DNA of 64,000 bases, taken from assembly GCF_000378305.1 (NCBI RefSeq), contig NZ_KB899539.1, forward strand, positions 219,854 through 283,853, given 5' to 3'. This stretch comes from Thioalkalivibrio sp. ALJ12. GTDB taxonomy: Bacteria > Pseudomonadota > Gammaproteobacteria > Ectothiorhodospirales > Ectothiorhodospiraceae. The number at the start of each line of letters is the position of its first letter. The first letter of the stretch is position 1. The notes below the pieces were generated by a model that worked only from the letters and a program-made list of their open reading frames with translations, was not told the DNA's origin and ran no database searches. Shown one piece after another: positions 1,772 to 60,306 of this stretch. The position numbers and the translations under genes were made by a program.

Positions 1772-2629
1772 ATGCTGAACCTGTTCAAACTGGCGCTGAT
1801 TCTGGCGGTTGGGTACGCCCTGTTCGTGGGGCTGATCTACCTGACGCAGGACCGGCTGATCTACATGCCCAGCAGCAATGTGGTCGGCAGTCCCGCGAAC
1901 ATCGGGCTGGAATACGAGGATGTGGCGCTCGAGACCGAAGACGGCGTGCGGCTGCACGGGTGGTACCTGCCGGGTCCGGAGGATGATGCGCCGGTCTTGC
2001 TGTTCCTGCATGGCAATGCGGGGAATATCGGCCACCGCCTGGAGTCGCTCGAGCAGTTCCATCATCTGGGGCTCGCGGTGCTGATCATCGACTACCGTGG
2101 GTACGGCAACAGCCAGGGGCGACCTGACGAGGAGGGCACCTATGAAGATGCCCGTGCGGCGTGGAACTGGCTACGCGAGCATCTGGAGTACGAACCCGAG
2201 GAGATCGTACTGTTCGGCCGTTCCCTGGGCGCAGCCGTGGCGGCGCGGCTGGCCGAGACCAAGAGCCCTGCGGCCGTTATCCTGGAGGCGGCCTTCACCT
2301 CGGCAGCCGATCTCGGCGCGGAGGTCTACCCCTGGCTCCCGGTGCGTGCGTTGATCCGGCATGAATACGACGTGCTCGGACGGGTCGGGGCGATTGAGGC
2401 GCCGCTGCTGTTTGCCCATGCGCGCGACGACGAGATCGTGCCGTTTGCGCATGCCGAACGCCTGCTGGAGGCGGGCGGCGATGGGGCACAGTTGATGGAG
2501 ATGGACGGCGGGCACAATGACGCCTTTCGGGCGACCGGCTCGCGCTACATCGAGGGGCTGCGCGAGTTTCTGGAGGATGCAGGCCTGGAGCTGCGCCCGC
2601 GGGATGCGACGAATGGGGACGGGGAGTAG
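1772..2629 (+). CDS. Membrane-anchored alpha/beta hydrolase (BEM46/YfhR-like)
   Basis: Serine hydrolase of 285 residues. Residues 4-24 form one hydrophobic N-terminal anchor, so the catalytic domain probably sits at the periplasmic face of the inner membrane. HGNAGN at 80-85 is the oxyanion-hole loop of the BEM46/ABHD13 group. The nucleophile elbow GRSLG places Ser at 151; likely Asp 219/220 (ARDDEIVP) and His 248 (DGGHND) complete the triad. The ATG at 1772 is preferred over upstream in-frame starts because it opens directly into the anchor and upstream codons lie in the relA promoter region. The substrate is unknown; esterase or acyl-transferase-type activity is typical of the family. Confidence 0.85.
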   Translation: MLNLFKLALILAVGYALFVGLIYLTQDRLIYMPSSNVVGSPANIGLEYEDVALETEDGVRLHGWYLPGPEDDAPVLLFLHGNAGNIGHRLESLEQFHHLGLAVLIIDYRGYGNSQGRPDEEGTYEDARAAWNWLREHLEYEPEEIVLFGRSLGAAVAARLAETKSPAAVILEAAFTSAADLGAEVYPWLPVRALIRHEYDVLGRVGAIEAPLLFAHARDDEIVPFAHAERLLEAGGDGAQLMEMDGGHNDAFRATGSRYIEGLREFLEDAGLELRPRDATNGDGE

Positions 2630-2685: not shown

Positions 2686-3687
2686 ATGCCTCAGCTTGAA
2701 TTAGGCCCACCGGGGCTCGCGATCAGCCGGCAGGAAGGCCGGGGTGACGCACCGGTACTCACGCTGCGTTTCGGTCCCGTTACCGGGGCCACGTTGCGCC
2801 CGGACGGGATCGATATTGCCCTTGGCCTCGAGCCACTGGAGATCCCGGAAGGCCGCGAGGCGGCGCCCGAGCTCTGGTACGCAGCGGGTGCGGTGCGCAC
2901 CGAGCAGATCGATGACCTGATGCTGGCGCATGCGGGGGACCGGCTCGTGGGCTGCTGGTATCGGCCGCATGGCGCCGCCGAGGACCCCGGGGCCATCACC
3001 GAGCAGGCCTATCATGCGATCCTCGAGGCCTGCCAGGAGCGGGGGTTCGGACACCTGGTGCGGGCCTGGAACTACTTCCCTGCGATCAACCAGGAACTGA
3101 ACGGCCAGGAGCGCTACCGCAGTTTTTGTGCCGGGCGCGCCCGGGTGTTCGAGGCCCTGCCGGATTTCGAGCGGCACCTGCCGGCGGCGACGGCCATTGG
3201 CACGCATGCCGACGGCATGCTGATCTACTTCATCGCCATGCGCGAGGCCACGCTGCGGATCGAGAATCCGCGCCAGGTCAGCGCGTTTCGCTATCCGCGG
3301 CAGTACGGGCCGCGCAGCCCGTCGTTCGCGCGGGCGCGGATGAGCCAGGAGGCGTGCGGGGCCGCGGAACTGTTCATCTCCGGCACGGCCAGCATCGTGG
3401 GCCACGAAAGCCGGCACGCGGAGGATCTCGAGGCCCAGATCGACGAGAGCCTGCGCAATATCGGGGTGCTGCTGGCGGCGGCCTCCGAGGAGGGCGCTGT
3501 GGCTCTGCGCGATCCCGGCGACCTCTCGATGCTGAAGGTCTATCTGCGCCACCGAGCAGACGGTGCTCGCGCGCAGCGGCATCTGCGCGAGTGCCTGGGC
3601 GAAGACGTCGACATCCTGCTGTTGCATGGGGATATCTGCCGCAGCGAACTGTTAGTGGAAATCGAAGGGCTGTACCGCGAGGGCTAG
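2686..3687 (+). CDS. Chorismatase of the FkbO/Hyg5/XanB2 family
   Basis: Predicted to hydrolyse chorismate to a hydroxybenzoate or dihydroxycyclohexadiene carboxylate plus pyruvate. Family marks are RYRSFCAGR at 143-151, SFARARMS at 213-220 and ISGTASIVGHES at 231-242. Older annotation calls these proteins pteridine-dependent dioxygenases. XanB2 of Xanthomonas makes 3- and 4-hydroxybenzoate for aryl-polyene pigment and ubiquinone; FkbO and Hyg5 make other products. The sequence alone does not tell me which product is formed. The next gene is a UbiE-like methyltransferase, which fits a quinone or aryl-polyene role. The length of 333 residues is normal for the family. The start is the second of two nearby ATGs, the one in frame; no strong ribosome site is visible. 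Confidence 0.85.
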   Translation: MPQLELGPPGLAISRQEGRGDAPVLTLRFGPVTGATLRPDGIDIALGLEPLEIPEGREAAPELWYAAGAVRTEQIDDLMLAHAGDRLVGCWYRPHGAAEDPGAITEQAYHAILEACQERGFGHLVRAWNYFPAINQELNGQERYRSFCAGRARVFEALPDFERHLPAATAIGTHADGMLIYFIAMREATLRIENPRQVSAFRYPRQYGPRSPSFARARMSQEACGAAELFISGTASIVGHESRHAEDLEAQIDESLRNIGVLLAAASEEGAVALRDPGDLSMLKVYLRHRADGARAQRHLRECLGEDVDILLLHGDICRSELLVEIEGLYREG

Positions 3688-3759
3688 CCCGCAGGGCCCC
3701 GCCTCTCGCGGGCATTGAACTGGCATTGGGCGCGCGCGGCGCGCAGAAGGGGGAAGTGG

Positions 3760-4506
3760 ATGAATGATCCGGGGTACAAGCCGCATCCGGTATTGAAGGA
3801 CTATTACGGCGACGAGTCGGAAAAGCGGGCGTTTGTTGATGACCTGTTCGACCGGACGGCACCGCATTACGACCGCATCCTGCGCTGGGGCTTTCTGGGC
3901 ACCGGCCAGGCGTATCGCCGCTACGCGCTGAAGCAGTCCGGCCTGAAGCCCGGTATGGATGTCCTGGATGTCGCGACGGGCACGGGCCCGGTGGCGCGCG
4001 AGGTGCGCAAGGTGGTCGGTGACGAGAACATCACCTGTGTCGATCCCAGCCGCGGCATGATCGACGTGGCCCGGCGCTCGATCAAGGCGCGCTTCATCGA
4101 GGGTCTGGGCGAGCAGTTGCCGCTGCCGGACAAACAGTTCGACCGCGTGTACATGGGGTACGGCCTGCGCCATGTGCGCGACCTGCACGAGCTGTTTGGC
4201 GAGTACTTCCGTGTGCTCAAGCCGGGCGGTCGCTGCATGATCCTCGAGGTCTCGCGCCCCAGCACGGAGCGCCAGTTCAAGATGGCGCGGTTCTACTTCC
4301 GCGACTTCATCCCGTTTCTCAGCCGCCTGCTGACCCGTGACCCGGATGGACATCTGCTGATGCGCTATTTTTGGGACACGATCAACGAGTGCGTGCCGCC
4401 GGAGAAGATCATGGGCGTGCTGGAGGATGTCGGTTTCCGCGAGGTCGAGCGCGATGTGCAGCTCGGCGTATTCAGCGCCTACCTGGCGACGCGGCCGGCC
4501 GACTAG
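3760..4506 (+). CDS. UbiE/COQ5-like class I SAM methyltransferase
   Basis: SAM-dependent methyltransferase of 248 residues. Motif I is VLDVATGTGP at 68-77. A UbiE-like GLRHVRDL segment and post-motif FRVLKPGGR follow. It is clearly divergent from canonical UbiE in the N-terminus and substrate region, so I treat it as a paralogue of unknown substrate. The ATG at 3760 has a purine-rich GAAGGGGGAAG just upstream, better than the in-frame ATG at 3715. It lies 72 bp after the chorismatase gene in the same direction, so it may methylate a product derived from the hydroxybenzoate. An ordinary ubiquinone C-methylase is the main alternative. Confidence 0.75.
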   Translation: MNDPGYKPHPVLKDYYGDESEKRAFVDDLFDRTAPHYDRILRWGFLGTGQAYRRYALKQSGLKPGMDVLDVATGTGPVAREVRKVVGDENITCVDPSRGMIDVARRSIKARFIEGLGEQLPLPDKQFDRVYMGYGLRHVRDLHELFGEYFRVLKPGGRCMILEVSRPSTERQFKMARFYFRDFIPFLSRLLTRDPDGHLLMRYFWDTINECVPPEKIMGVLEDVGFREVERDVQLGVFSAYLATRPAD

Positions 4507-4511
4507 GCGGT

Positions 4512-4769
4512 TTGGCTCGCCTTAGGGTCCGCGTGGCGCCGGGCAGCAAGCGCGATGCGATTGGCCCCTGGATGGGGGATATCCTCAAGCTTCGCGTGCA
4601 GGCCCCACCAGAGAAAGGCCGGGCAAACGAGGCCGTTTGCGCCCTGCTGGCGAAGACGCTGGGCTGCCCGGCCCGTGACGTGACCGTCGTGGCGGGTGCG
4701 ACCGCGCGCGACAAGACCGTGGCGATCGAGGGTTACGGCGAGGAGCAAATCCGCCGCGCGTTATCCTGA
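4512..4769 (+). CDS. yggU: DUF167/YggU family protein
   Basis: Small protein of about 85 residues from the YggU family (PF02594), whose function is not established. Diagnostic features are RVAPGSKRDAIG near the N-terminus and LKLRVQAPPEKGRANEAV, the conserved PPxxGxAN core. The TTG at 4512 starts 5 bp after the preceding stop and gives the usual family length. The only purine-rich stretch (AGGCGG) ends 1 nt before it, which is too close, so translation may be coupled to the upstream gene and the exact start is uncertain. Confidence 0.75.
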   Translation: MARLRVRVAPGSKRDAIGPWMGDILKLRVQAPPEKGRANEAVCALLAKTLGCPARDVTVVAGATARDKTVAIEGYGEEQIRRALS

Positions 4770-4835
4770 TCGCCGGATACAATCAGCGTTTCCTCAATGG
4801 AGCCGCCAGGGCTCCCGCGACTCTTCCAGGATCCC

Positions 4836-5873
4836 ATGAACCGTCTGACGATTACCCGACCCGACGACTGGCACCTGCATCTGCGCGATGGCGATGTGCT
4901 CGGCAGCGTGCTGCCGGATACCGCCCGGCGTTTTCGCCGCGCGATCATCATGCCGAACCTCAAGCCGCCGGTGACGACGGTCGAGGCGGCGGCCGAGTAT
5001 CGCGAGCGCATCCTCGCGGCGCTTCCGGAGGAAGCGGACTTCGAGCCGCTGATGACGCTTTATCTGACCGAGGCGACCACGCCCGGGATGATCGAGGCGG
5101 CAAAGGCCAGCGGGTTCATTCACGGCGTGAAGCTGTACCCGGCGGGGGCGACGACCAACGCAGCCAGCGGCGTGTCGGATATCCGGCGTTGCTACCCCGT
5201 GTTCGAGGCGATGCAGCGGGTCGACCTGCCGCTCCTGGTGCATGGAGAGGTGACCGATCCGGAGGTCGACATCTTCGACCGCGAGGCGGTGTTTATCGAA
5301 CGCCACCTGCAGCCGCTGATTCGCGAGTTTCCGGACCTGCGGGTGGTGCTGGAGCACACCACGACCGAATCGGGGGTGGCGTTTGTCGAATCGGGCCCGG
5401 AGAACATCGCGGCGACCATCACCCCGCAGCACCTTCTGTACAACCGCAATGCGCTGTTCGTCGGCGGCATCCGGCCGCATCATTACTGCCTGCCGATCCT
5501 GAAGCGCGAGCGCCACCGCCAGGCCCTGTTGCGTGCTGCTACCAGCGGGCACCCACGCTTCTTCCTCGGGACCGACAGCGCCCCGCACCCGCGGCATGCG
5601 AAGGAGTCCGCCTGTGGCTGCGCGGGCATCTATTCAGCCCACGCGGCGATCGAGTTCTATGCCGAGGCCTTCGCCTCTGTGGATGCGCTGGACAAACTGG
5701 AGGGCTTCGCCAGCTTCCACGGCCCGGATTTCTACGGGCTGCCGCGCAACACGGACACCATCACGCTGGAGCGGGTGGACTGGACCGTGCCCGAAGCGGT
5801 GCTGTTCGGCCATGACCCGGGCGTACCCCTGCGTGCGGGCGAGACGGTCGCCTGGCAGCTGGCGCGCCACTGA
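4836..5873 (+). CDS. pyrC: Dihydroorotase PyrC
   Basis: Third step of de novo pyrimidine synthesis: reversible cyclisation of carbamoyl aspartate to dihydroorotate, in the cytoplasm. The 345 residues match E. coli PyrC (348). Zinc ligands of the HxH pair are in WHLHLRDG (His13, His15). [11 protein letters not shown] carries the carboxylated Lys near residue 101. LVHGEV and LEHTTT supply further His ligands, and GTDSAPH carries the catalytic Asp. The ATG at 4836 is chosen over 4797 because the protein starts at [15 protein letters not shown] like its homologues. Confidence 0.96.
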
Positions 5874-50752: not shown

Positions 50753-51364
50753 ATGCGCAGCGCCCTCTACAACCTGCTGATCCTGCGTCTTACCTCGCAG
50801 TGGTATGCCGAGGTCATGCGGCGGCTGCCGGACGGGACGGCTCTGCTGGACGTGGGCATTGGCACCGCCGGTGCGCTGCTCGCCAATGCCGCCACGGCAC
50901 GCGAGAAGGGGCTCGTCATCACGGGGATCGATATCGATGCCGACTACATCCAGCACGCCCGGCGAGCCCTGCGCGACTCGCCCCTGGCCGATAGAGCCGA
51001 GGCCCGACTCGAATCCATCTACGACCACACAGGTGGCCCGTACGACGCGATCTACTTCTCCGCCAGCTTCATGCTCCTGCCGGACCCCGAGGGCGCTCTG
51101 CGCCACTGCCGCAGCCTGCTGAAGCCGGAGGGGAAGGTCTTCTTCACCCAGACCTTCCAGACCCGCCCCTCCCGCTGGATGGAGCGCTTCAAGCCCCTGC
51201 TCAAGCGCATCACCACCATCGATTTCGGTCGCGTGACCTACGAAGAAGCGTTTCGGGAACAGGTGGCGGGGGCCGGGTTTGTGATCGACGAGTTCACCAC
51301 ACTCGGACGCCACGGGACGCGCGCCTCCGTCCTTGCCATCGCCCGACCCGCCAGCTCCGCCTGA
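50753..51364 (+). CDS. Class I SAM-dependent methyltransferase
   Basis: Protein of 203 residues. Motif I LLDVGIGTAGALL, motif II TGIDIDADYIQHARR, motif IV DAIYFSASFMLLPDPE, and LKPEGKVFFTQTF. Starts at ATG 50753 (MRSALYNLL). Similar to small-molecule methyltransferases; no substrate clue. Divergent from dnaE2 across about 110 bp; the first REPIN follows 40 bp after its stop. Confidence 0.8.
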   Translation: MRSALYNLLILRLTSQWYAEVMRRLPDGTALLDVGIGTAGALLANAATAREKGLVITGIDIDADYIQHARRALRDSPLADRAEARLESIYDHTGGPYDAIYFSASFMLLPDPEGALRHCRSLLKPEGKVFFTQTFQTRPSRWMERFKPLLKRITTIDFGRVTYEEAFREQVAGAGFVIDEFTTLGRHGTRASVLAIARPASSA

Positions 51365-52524: not shown

Positions 52525-53283
52525 TCAGGCTTCGGGCTTCCGTGCCAGCAACATGTAGTTGACGCTCATGGAGCGCGACAGCCACATCCGGCGGGAAAGC
52601 GGATTCACCTTGACTCCCGTCTGCGCCACGGGCTCCAGGCCGTCCCGCGCGAGCAGCGCCCTCGTTTCCCGCGGTGTGACAAAGCGCTTCCACTGATGGG
52701 TGCCCCGGGGCAGGATGCGGAACAGGTACTCGGCACCGACAATCGCCACCACGAACGAGACCGGATTGCGATTGATCGTGGCCACGAAGGTGTGGCCGCC
52801 GGCGCGCAGCATGCGGTTGACGCTCGCCATGAACGCGGGCAGGTCCGCCACATGCTCCACCACCTCCATGTTCAGGATCACGTCGAAGGTCTCGCCTCGT
52901 GCCGCGAGGGCTTCCGCGGTGTTCACTTCGTACTCGATATCCAGGCCCTGCTCCGCGGCATGAAGCCGAGCCGCGGCGATGTTCCGGTCGACGACGTCCA
53001 CGCCCAGTACATTCGCGCCCAGGCGGGCCATGGCCTCGCTCAGCAGCCCGCCGCCACAGCCAATATCGAGGATGCGCAGGCCGTCCAGGGGGCGCTCGGC
53101 CTCCGCGTCCCGCCCGAGCGAGTGGCAGAGTTGGTCGCGGATGTAGTCACTGCGCAGGCCGTTCAGCACGTGCAGGGGCCAGAGTCTTCCATCCGGTTCC
53201 CACCACATCTCGGCCAGGGCGCGGTAGCGTTCCACCTCGGCGGGATCAACGGTTCGGTCGTGTTCCACATTCGGAGAAGTCAT
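52525..53283 (-). CDS. ubiG: Ubiquinone biosynthesis O-methyltransferase UbiG
   Basis: Two O-methylations in ubiquinone synthesis. 252 residues: EVERYRALAEMWWEPDGRL and PLHVLNGLRSDYI at the N-terminus, SAM motif ILDIGCGGGLLSEAMARLG, GVDVVDRNIAAARLHA, and C-terminal NRNPVSFVVAIVGAEYLFR with GTHQWKRFVTP, all UbiG-specific. Start at 53283 (MTSPNVEHD) fits family length; an in-frame ATG 27 bp upstream is possible and neither has a strong ribosome site. Confidence 0.93.
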   Translation of the reverse strand: MTSPNVEHDRTVDPAEVERYRALAEMWWEPDGRLWPLHVLNGLRSDYIRDQLCHSLGRDAEAERPLDGLRILDIGCGGGLLSEAMARLGANVLGVDVVDRNIAAARLHAAEQGLDIEYEVNTAEALAARGETFDVILNMEVVEHVADLPAFMASVNRMLRAGGHTFVATINRNPVSFVVAIVGAEYLFRILPRGTHQWKRFVTPRETRALLARDGLEPVAQTGVKVNPLSRRMWLSRSMSVNYMLLARKPEA

Positions 53284-57790: not shown

Positions 57791-58069
57791 ATGGAAACAG
57801 TAAGCGTCAACCGGTTTCGTGAGAACCTGAAGGCCTTTGTCGAGGAAGCGGTATCCACGCACACCCCGCTCAAGGTGACGCGGCGCGCGGGTGAAGCCTT
57901 CGTAGTGATGAGCGCGGATGACTGGGAGCGGGAGCAGGAAACGCTCTATGTGCTTCAGAACTCCAGCTTGATGCAGCAGATTGCGGACTCCGCCGCCACC
58001 CATCGGAAGGGAGACGGTTATCGACCCACGGAAGGGGAGATCGATGAGATCACTGGTATTCGAGGGTAA
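57791..58069 (+). CDS. yefM: Antitoxin YefM (Phd/YefM family)
   Basis: Antitoxin of 92 residues. N-terminal dimer/DNA-binding fold METVSVNRFRENLKAFVEEA with PLKVTRRAGEAFVVMSADDW; C-terminal acidic segment for toxin binding (EGEIDEITGIRG). The toxin ATG lies 26 bp inside its end. It should bind the ACCGTACGGT operator and repress its own operon together with YoeB. Confidence 0.9.
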   Translation: METVSVNRFRENLKAFVEEAVSTHTPLKVTRRAGEAFVVMSADDWEREQETLYVLQNSSLMQQIADSAATHRKGDGYRPTEGEIDEITGIRG

Positions 58070-58313
58070 TACCTGGGCCGCGTACGAAACGCTCCGGGAG
58101 CGCGACCCAAAGCTGCATCGAGCCCTGCGCCGGATCCTGAAGGAGATGCTCCGGAACGACCCGGCCACCGGAACCGGGAAGCCGGAACCCCTCCGGCATT
58201 CGCTCTCGGGCTTCTGGTCCCGACGTCTCTCCGCCCGGGACCGACTGATCTACCGCTTCGACGATCAAGCCATCTATATCTTCGCGATCGGGGGCCATTA
58301 CGACGCGTTGTGA
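58044..58313 (+). CDS. yoeB: Toxin YoeB (Txe family mRNA interferase)
   Basis: Ribosome-dependent endoribonuclease of 89 residues. GKPEPLRHSLSGFWSRRL followed by RDRLIYRFDDQ and a C-terminal GHYDAL match YoeB (GKPEPLKHNLSGFWSRR, HRLVY, HYH end). Catalytic Arg, Glu/His-like and C-terminal Tyr positions are retained. AAGGGGAGA lies 4 nt before ATG. Overlap with yefM links their translation. Confidence 0.92.
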   Translation: MRSLVFEGNTWAAYETLRERDPKLHRALRRILKEMLRNDPATGTGKPEPLRHSLSGFWSRRLSARDRLIYRFDDQAIYIFAIGGHYDAL

Positions 58314-59803: not shown

Positions 59804-60067
59804 TTACTCGTAGTGGCTCCATAAACGAATCACCTTGACGACTCCCTCGTCTTCAAGCACCTGGTACACAAGCCGGTGTTGAATATTGATGCGCCGCGAG
59901 TACGCGCCGGAGAGATCACCCACCAGCTTCTCGAATGGTGGGGGCTTTCGATACGGATCTTCCGCGATCAACGTCAGCAGTTCCTGTGCTTTCGGCTTCA
60001 GGCCGCTGGCCGCCAGCTTCTTCGCATCCTTTTGGGCCTGCCGGGTGTAGACCAACTTCCATGTCAC
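59804..60067 (-). CDS. Toxin YoeB/Txe family, second module
   Basis: Toxin of 87 residues, begin at GTG 60067 which overlaps the yefM stop (GTGA). Family features: WKLVYTRQAQKDAKKLAASG, the PPFEKLVGDLSGAYSRRI core and INIQHRLVYQVL, then a WSHYE end. Less similar to E. coli YoeB than the first toxin. Product pairs with the upstream antitoxin; cross-neutralisation with the other module is unknown. Confidence 0.88.
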   Translation of the reverse strand: MTWKLVYTRQAQKDAKKLAASGLKPKAQELLTLIAEDPYRKPPPFEKLVGDLSGAYSRRINIQHRLVYQVLEDEGVVKVIRLWSHYE

Positions 60068-60306
60068 CAATCCAGCTCCTCGTGGCATTCATCCGCCGGA
60101 GTATCCATCCCCTCGCGGATCGACTCGCGCATACCCGGCACCGATAGCAGGTACAGGGTCTCCTGAATGGCCGACCAGTCCGACTCGGATAGCAGGACCG
60201 CGTTGTTCCGCTTGCCGGTGATCACAATCGGCTCGTGGGATTCCGCCGTTTCGTCGATCAGCCGGTAGAGGTTGCTGCGCGCCTCTGTAGCCGTAATTCC
60301 CGTCAT
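60064..60306 (-). CDS. Antitoxin YefM/Phd, second module
   Basis: Antitoxin of 80 residues: MTGITATEARSNLYRLIDET, EPIVITGKRNNAVLLSESDW, then ETLYLLSVPGMRESIREGM. The start ATG 60306 fits family length. Promoter region upstream has several GTAC palindromes (60342-60375), one shared with the first module. Confidence 0.9.
   Translation of the reverse strand: MTGITATEARSNLYRLIDETAESHEPIVITGKRNNAVLLSESDWSAIQETLYLLSVPGMRESIREGMDTPADECHEELDW

Follow-up and report, generated by a model that had tools for sequence, protein, structure and literature searches.

The locus studied here, a chorismatase gene (CHw) followed by the gene of a UbiE-like methyltransferase (MTw), raises the question of whether it serves ubiquinone or an aryl-polyene pigment. 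The window, that is, the whole stretch of 64,000 nucleotides that was analyzed (G000:C2:219854-283853), lies in a 2.78-Mb genome of Thioalkalivibrio sp. ALJ12 that is 99.97% complete. Its named relatives were all Thioalkalivibrio, namely T. thiocyanoxidans ARh2 (89%) and strains ALJ7, ALE14, and AKL19 (61-62%), the genus that an earlier note on this DNA had guessed from the letters alone.

MTw starts 72 bp beyond CHw on the same strand (Table 1), and 12 of the 30 genus genomes had the pair, with invariant order and on a single strand. The pyrC gene was found without the pair in G026, G012, G010, and G016. Because the alpha/beta hydrolase gene is kept in G026, it is not thought to be part of the pathway, and a pigment role is not suggested for the YggU/DUF167 gene. 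A consensus scan for promoters and terminators gave chance-level matches only. Genes outside the window were called with a simple script.

Table 1. Features of the window (plain coordinates) and of other contigs of the same genome (G000).
Feature	Position	Strand	Assignment and basis
Alpha/beta hydrolase	1772-2629	+	Constant upstream neighbor of CHw
CHw, chorismatase, 333 aa	2686-3687	+	Proposed pigment-dedicated hydroxybenzoate synthase; PF21168, Hyg5 and FkbO matches, Cys318/Glu325/Gly233, co-occurrence and co-loss with the operon
MTw, UbiE-superfamily SAM methyltransferase, 248 aa	3760-4506	+	Proposed aryl-polyene methyltransferase; PF01209, co-occurrence in the class, own clade, homologs within clusters
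YggU/DUF167 gene	4512-4769	+	Between MTw and pyrC; PF02594, 85.7 bits; TTG start at 4512 is our reading
pyrC, dihydroorotase	4797-5873	+	Downstream boundary of the insert; TIGR00856, 479.7 bits
Small SAM-dependent methyltransferase	50753-51364		Methyltransf_23, not UbiE-like
Presumed UbiG-like methyltransferase, ubiquinone pathway	52525-53268	-	Methyltransferase domains and a motif that we take to be that of UbiG
Two pairs of small adjoining genes	57791-58313, 59804-60306		Presumably antitoxin-toxin-like, by sequence
Second chorismatase	G000:C3:354743-355102		PF21168; between an EAL-type gene and mutM
UbiE	G000:C1:581963-582649		Canonical; 315 bits
Aryl-polyene operon	G000:C1, about 958.5-968.8 kb	-	ACP, 204-aa protein, AMP ligase, FabA-like dehydratase, acyltransferase, LolA-like, MMPL, ketosynthase, PF13723 protein, weak ApeP-like match, SDR reductase, glycosyltransferase
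PF13723 protein of the operon	C1:960628-961092		Single match in the genome

CHw was matched by Pfam PF21168 (FkbO_Hyg5-like_N; 111.6 bits, E 3.2e-32) and by NCBIfam TIGR04444 (chori_FkbO_Hyg5) at 244.9 bits, below the curated cut-off of 325 of a model that appears to have been built on actinobacterial enzymes; its best solved relatives were Hyg5 (5ag3, 1.5e-47) and FkbO (4bps, 4.7e-38). At Hyg5 positions 173/240/327/334, CHw has Ala170/Gly233/Cys318/Glu325, with Gly/Gly/Cys/Glu in Hyg5 and Gly/Ala/Ala/Glu in FkbO, and the PF21168 domain together with the alignment of the catalytic Glu (Hyg5 Glu334) as Glu325 places it in the chorismatase superfamily. At the 3 published subfamily residues, Ala occupied the first in 133 of 138 rows and the other 2 were invariant wherever a residue was present; being so nearly uniform, these residues do not tell 3-HBA makers from 4-HBA makers, or CH-III, the XanB2 subfamily with both 3-HBA and 4-HBA as products, from CH-IV, the subfamily that forms 4-HBA alone. 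The authors of the ArcB study likewise state, in the available part of their paper, that the reaction type is not predictable by alignment alone (PMC3949708).

Two subfamily assignments were rejected. Membership in CH-I/FkbO, with FkbO-type chemistry, is contradicted by Gly233 and Cys318, where FkbO has Ala at both positions, and the tree position, whose examination the earlier note had proposed, agrees in setting CHw apart from FkbO. CH-II/Hyg5 is contradicted by Ala170/Gly233/Cys318 in place of Gly/Gly/Cys at Hyg5 173/240/327 (Nat-hyg5 Gly164/Gly231/Cys318; subfamily residues after the accessible text of PMC7170507), and the trees agree here also, with the proteobacterial chorismatases, CHw among them, separated from both Hyg5 and FkbO. 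In the best tree, CHw was sister to the second, mutM-linked chorismatase of the genus (support 92/94), and 3 alternatives were not rejected, grouping CHw with the Competibacteraceae type (p-AU 0.145), CHw with the mutM-linked set of the family (p-AU 0.115), or the 2 mutM-linked sets together (p-AU 0.291); a larger quick tree, in which duplicate loci were skipped, did not resolve the position of CHw. Further, CHw carries Asn135/Arg145 like the methyltransferase-linked pigment chorismatases, as against His135/Gln145 in 45 of 53 mutM-linked rows, a contrast that mirrors the phylogeny and is no proof of function.

MTw was matched by PF01209 (107.3 bits), which, with the PF21168 match of CHw, confirmed the first reading of the locus as an FkbO/XanB2-type chorismatase followed by a divergent UbiE-like methyltransferase. 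We retain the wording "divergent UbiE-like" because the TIGR01934 score fell under its cut-off (138 vs 158 bits); the UbiE equivalog score was 146.3 bits vs 216. The methyltransferase tree excludes duplicates and part of the near-identical genus rows, and the start of its row L223 was mis-set; 42 of its rows formed the MTw clade (100/98), to which none of the 10 UbiE rows belonged. MTw was therefore rejected as the UbiE/MenG of the cell, given the scores below cut-off, its own clade, and the true UbiE elsewhere in the genome. A second UbiE-like methyltransferase with 35-37% identity to MTw was observed in sister genera (G037:C5:123739, G035:C19:40902, G044:C1:1737073); it falls into neither the UbiE nor the MTw clade.

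The earlier note had reported no UbiC in the window and proposed a genome-wide search for ubiC and aryl-polyene genes; the absence held for the whole genome, in which PF04345 had no match. PF21168 identified 2 chorismatases in this genome, CHw and the copy beside mutM, and UbiA was present (229 bits). At least 1 chorismatase was identified in 25 of the 30 genus genomes, with 2 in 12 of them, and the 5 genomes without any are at most 80% complete. The mutM-linked copy was present in all 25, and in the sister genera exactly 1 chorismatase, beside mutM, was found in 17 of 17 genomes. Among the 30 genus genomes only 2, G012 and G015, had ubiC, and none of the 17 sister-genus genomes did. Since the sister genera have the mutM-linked copy alone and no ubiC, this copy probably feeds ubiquinone, and we consider it the likely supplier of that pathway. 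In G012 and G015, ubiC (G012:C1:902426-902950, G015:C123:2300-2791) occurs in genomes that also have the mutM-linked chorismatase and no aryl-polyene marker, and the 2 routes to 4-HBA seem redundant.

As a marker of aryl-polyene clusters we took the chain-length-factor model PF13723, which we assume to be diagnostic of them; other aryl-polyene genes adjoined it in the several-kb stretches examined. The same genome-wide search recovered an aryl-polyene operon on a different contig from the window pair, with the gene content of the xanthomonadin type, including ACP, AMP ligase, ketosynthase and chain-length factor, reductase, dehydratase, and LolA/MMPL proteins. No chorismatase or relative of MTw was found within this operon; CHw and MTw lie on the other contig, at pyrC, whereas homologs in other genera lie inside the cluster.

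The pair and the operon occur together across the genus. PF13723 was identified in 15 of 30 genomes, and MTw orthologs (at least 75% identity) were present in 14 of these 15 against 0 of the other 15, the sole marker genome without MTw being G019, which is 66% complete. CHw was present in 12 of 15 marker genomes and in none of the others. The association of MTw with the marker gave a Fisher p of 2e-7, but on a mutM tree, built from the 42 family genomes (of 47) whose locus was retrieved, the pigment trait changes only twice, MTw changing the same way both times, and with only 2 independent changes in the genus significance is out of reach. In a class-wide sample of 369 genomes, a relative of MTw (E ≤ 1e-40) was found in 22, all of which had PF13723, as compared with 87 of 369 overall (hypergeometric p = 1.6e-15, not corrected for relatedness).

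Genome G026 is nested in the clade with 2 chorismatases yet has neither CHw, MTw, nor the operon. Its pyrC comes 238 bp after the hydrolase gene, and the gene that flanks the far side of the operon in G000 follows valS, showing loss of the pair and of the operon at 2 unlinked loci. The mutM-linked chorismatase and a UbiE remain in G026, which has no ubiC; the pair thus seems unnecessary for ubiquinone and accompanies the pigment. In G007 and G013 the operon and the MTw-yggU-pyrC arrangement are present, and both CHw and ubiC are absent. CHw is thus not needed everywhere, and the one mutM-linked enzyme of these 2 genomes has to supply both pathways if a different acid is not the starter of their pigment; CHw either was acquired later or has disappeared from G007 and G013.

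Linkage in other bacteria points the same way. Among 80 loci found with the chorismatase profile, an MTw-type gene was identified in 21, with 4 of these belonging to Thioalkalivibrio. At 9 loci outside the genus, of Candidatus Competibacteraceae (L122, L127, L139, L149, L153, and others), the MTw homolog (45-50% identity) has the same orientation as the chorismatase and follows 50-62 bp past its match, and there the pair lies within the cluster, whereas in Thioalkalivibrio it lies outside. The gap was 608 bp in L118, and in the remaining 7 loci the methyltransferase was more distant or on the opposite strand. Outside the genus, 20 class genomes had MTw, and G047 and 8 others were examined over wide stretches; an aryl-polyene cluster surrounded the MTw homolog in G047 and 6 of the 8, and not in L249 and L250. 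G047, which belongs to another family and has ubiC, carries both a chorismatase and an MTw homolog (44% identity) within its cluster. In L249 and L250 (G117 and G147), the MTw homolog had no aryl-polyene genes within 15-18 kb and PF13723 was on another contig, which may mean that Thioalkalivibrio is not alone in having a detached arrangement.

The arrangement can be compared with 3 described systems, each known to us from part of the cited text. The arcuflavin (arc) genes of Azoarcus sp. BH72 form 2 clusters with a XanB2-type chorismatase (ArcB), a methyltransferase (ArcM), an AMP ligase (ArcT), ACP, exporter, LolA, and halogenase; there the chorismatase lies inside the pigment cluster and dialkylresorcinol is also made, whereas in Thioalkalivibrio the pair stands alone at pyrC, and methylation in Azoarcus is believed to come after 3-HBA has been activated (PMC3949708). 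In Xanthomonas, as here, a chorismatase (XanB2) takes the place of UbiC and supplies the pathway of an aryl polyene, xanthomonadin, but through 1 bifunctional enzyme, in contrast to the 2 chorismatases of 12 of 30 Thioalkalivibrio genomes (PMC5069965, PMC3949708). The ape cluster of Escherichia coli is alike in its ACP, its ApeG-, ApeH-, ApeI-, ApeO-, ApeC-, ApeP-, and ApeQ-type steps, and its SAM methyltransferase for the head group, for which ApeB is the precedent; it takes 4-HBA from UbiC and has its methyltransferase in the cluster, whereas here a chorismatase is used and the methyltransferase is unlinked (PMC8253772).

From the gene content, co-occurrence, co-loss, and linkage we infer a product, a methyl position, an order of steps, and the name natronochrome, and we hold it very probable that CHw and MTw form a detached head-group module of the aryl-polyene pathway, most likely that of natronochrome, a yellow membrane pigment. 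CHw would split chorismate into pyruvate and a hydroxybenzoate, probably 3-HBA and perhaps 4-HBA with it, which would be loaded by the AMP ligase and acyl-carrier protein that the operon encodes. Ketosynthase, chain-length factor, ketoreductase, and dehydratases would then build the polyene, and the LolA- and MMPL-type proteins would carry it to the outer membrane. MTw would use SAM to methylate a position that we presume to be the aryl end but that may be a different one. The mutM-linked chorismatase would supply 4-HBA for ubiquinone in place of UbiC.

Strain K90mix makes much natronochrome, and the available text of its 2011 genome paper states that the genes were still to be identified (PMC3368412). 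The operon marker, CHw, and MTw were all present in G029, which we took as K90mix, so that this reported producer appears to have all parts; no link of these genes to natronochrome was found in the literature searched, which covers few subscription journals. Of the 15 marker genomes, 8 had a gene of the halogenase type, with a length of 452 aa in G025, at a distance of 8-9 kb from PF13723, and none was near PF13723 in G000, G001, G005, G007, G013, G021, and G029; hits of the halogenase model at 17-24 bits throughout were disregarded. The genomes with it formed one group in the mutM tree (86/93, not starred), in which G019 has no row. The operon-side halogenase could be the basis of chloronatronochrome, and with none in G000, the strain of the window is predicted to make the nonchlorinated form. 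At L098:1263-2621 (minus strand), a gene of this flavoprotein type was observed at the ACP end of the operon, and likewise in 7 other genus genomes.

The first reading had offered quinone or pigment as the fate of the hydroxybenzoate, and of these the pigment half is supported by the operon in the same genome. The quinone half, with CHw replacing UbiC and MTw acting as an extra UbiE, could appeal to the missing ubiC, to the UbiE superfamily of MTw, and to XanB2, which gives 4-HBA for ubiquinone in Xanthomonas (available part of PMC5069965). We rejected it as very improbable in view of the second chorismatase, the true UbiE at 315 bits, the distance of MTw from UbiE in the tree, and the 13 genus genomes, G026 with its loss among them, that have the mutM-linked copy only, lack the marker, and manage without the pair.

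An intermediate reading, in which CHw is bifunctional like XanB2 and feeds both pigment and ubiquinone, redundantly with the mutM-linked copy, agrees with the Ala/Gly/Cys set common to CHw and to the Xanthomonadaceae-type and mutM-linked chorismatases, with ArcB, a XanB2-type enzyme making both acids (accessible text of PMC3949708), and with G007 and G013, which run both pathways on 1 enzyme. We regard it as unlikely, as the loss of the pigment operon was accompanied by that of CHw and spared the mutM-linked copy, and Asn135/Arg145 is shared with pigment chorismatases, although this contrast follows the tree. That CHw makes a diffusible hydroxybenzoate signal modified by MTw, with an indirect link to pigment, would recall 3-HBA as the diffusible factor of Xanthomonas (same source) and leaves unexplained the co-occurrence and co-loss with an operon lacking its own starter enzyme; this is extremely improbable.

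Given a head-group module for the pigment, we suggest, more tentatively, that a shared chorismatase role has been split, with the mutM-linked enzyme serving ubiquinone and the second copy the pigment, that MTw is diagnostic of methylated aryl polyenes, that the halogenase sets chloronatronochrome producers apart from strains with natronochrome only, and that G007 and G013 possibly show the state before the division. The enzyme families are ordinary, and it is the arrangement that is informative, with its detached module, its second chorismatase, and a plausible assignment of genes to natronochrome. If true, soda-lake bacteria would allow direct tests of the pathway, of the unlinked starter module, and of the chlorination marker, the MTw family could be used as a flag for aryl-polyene tailoring, and the genus would offer a natural case of a bifunctional step perhaps divided between 2 genes.
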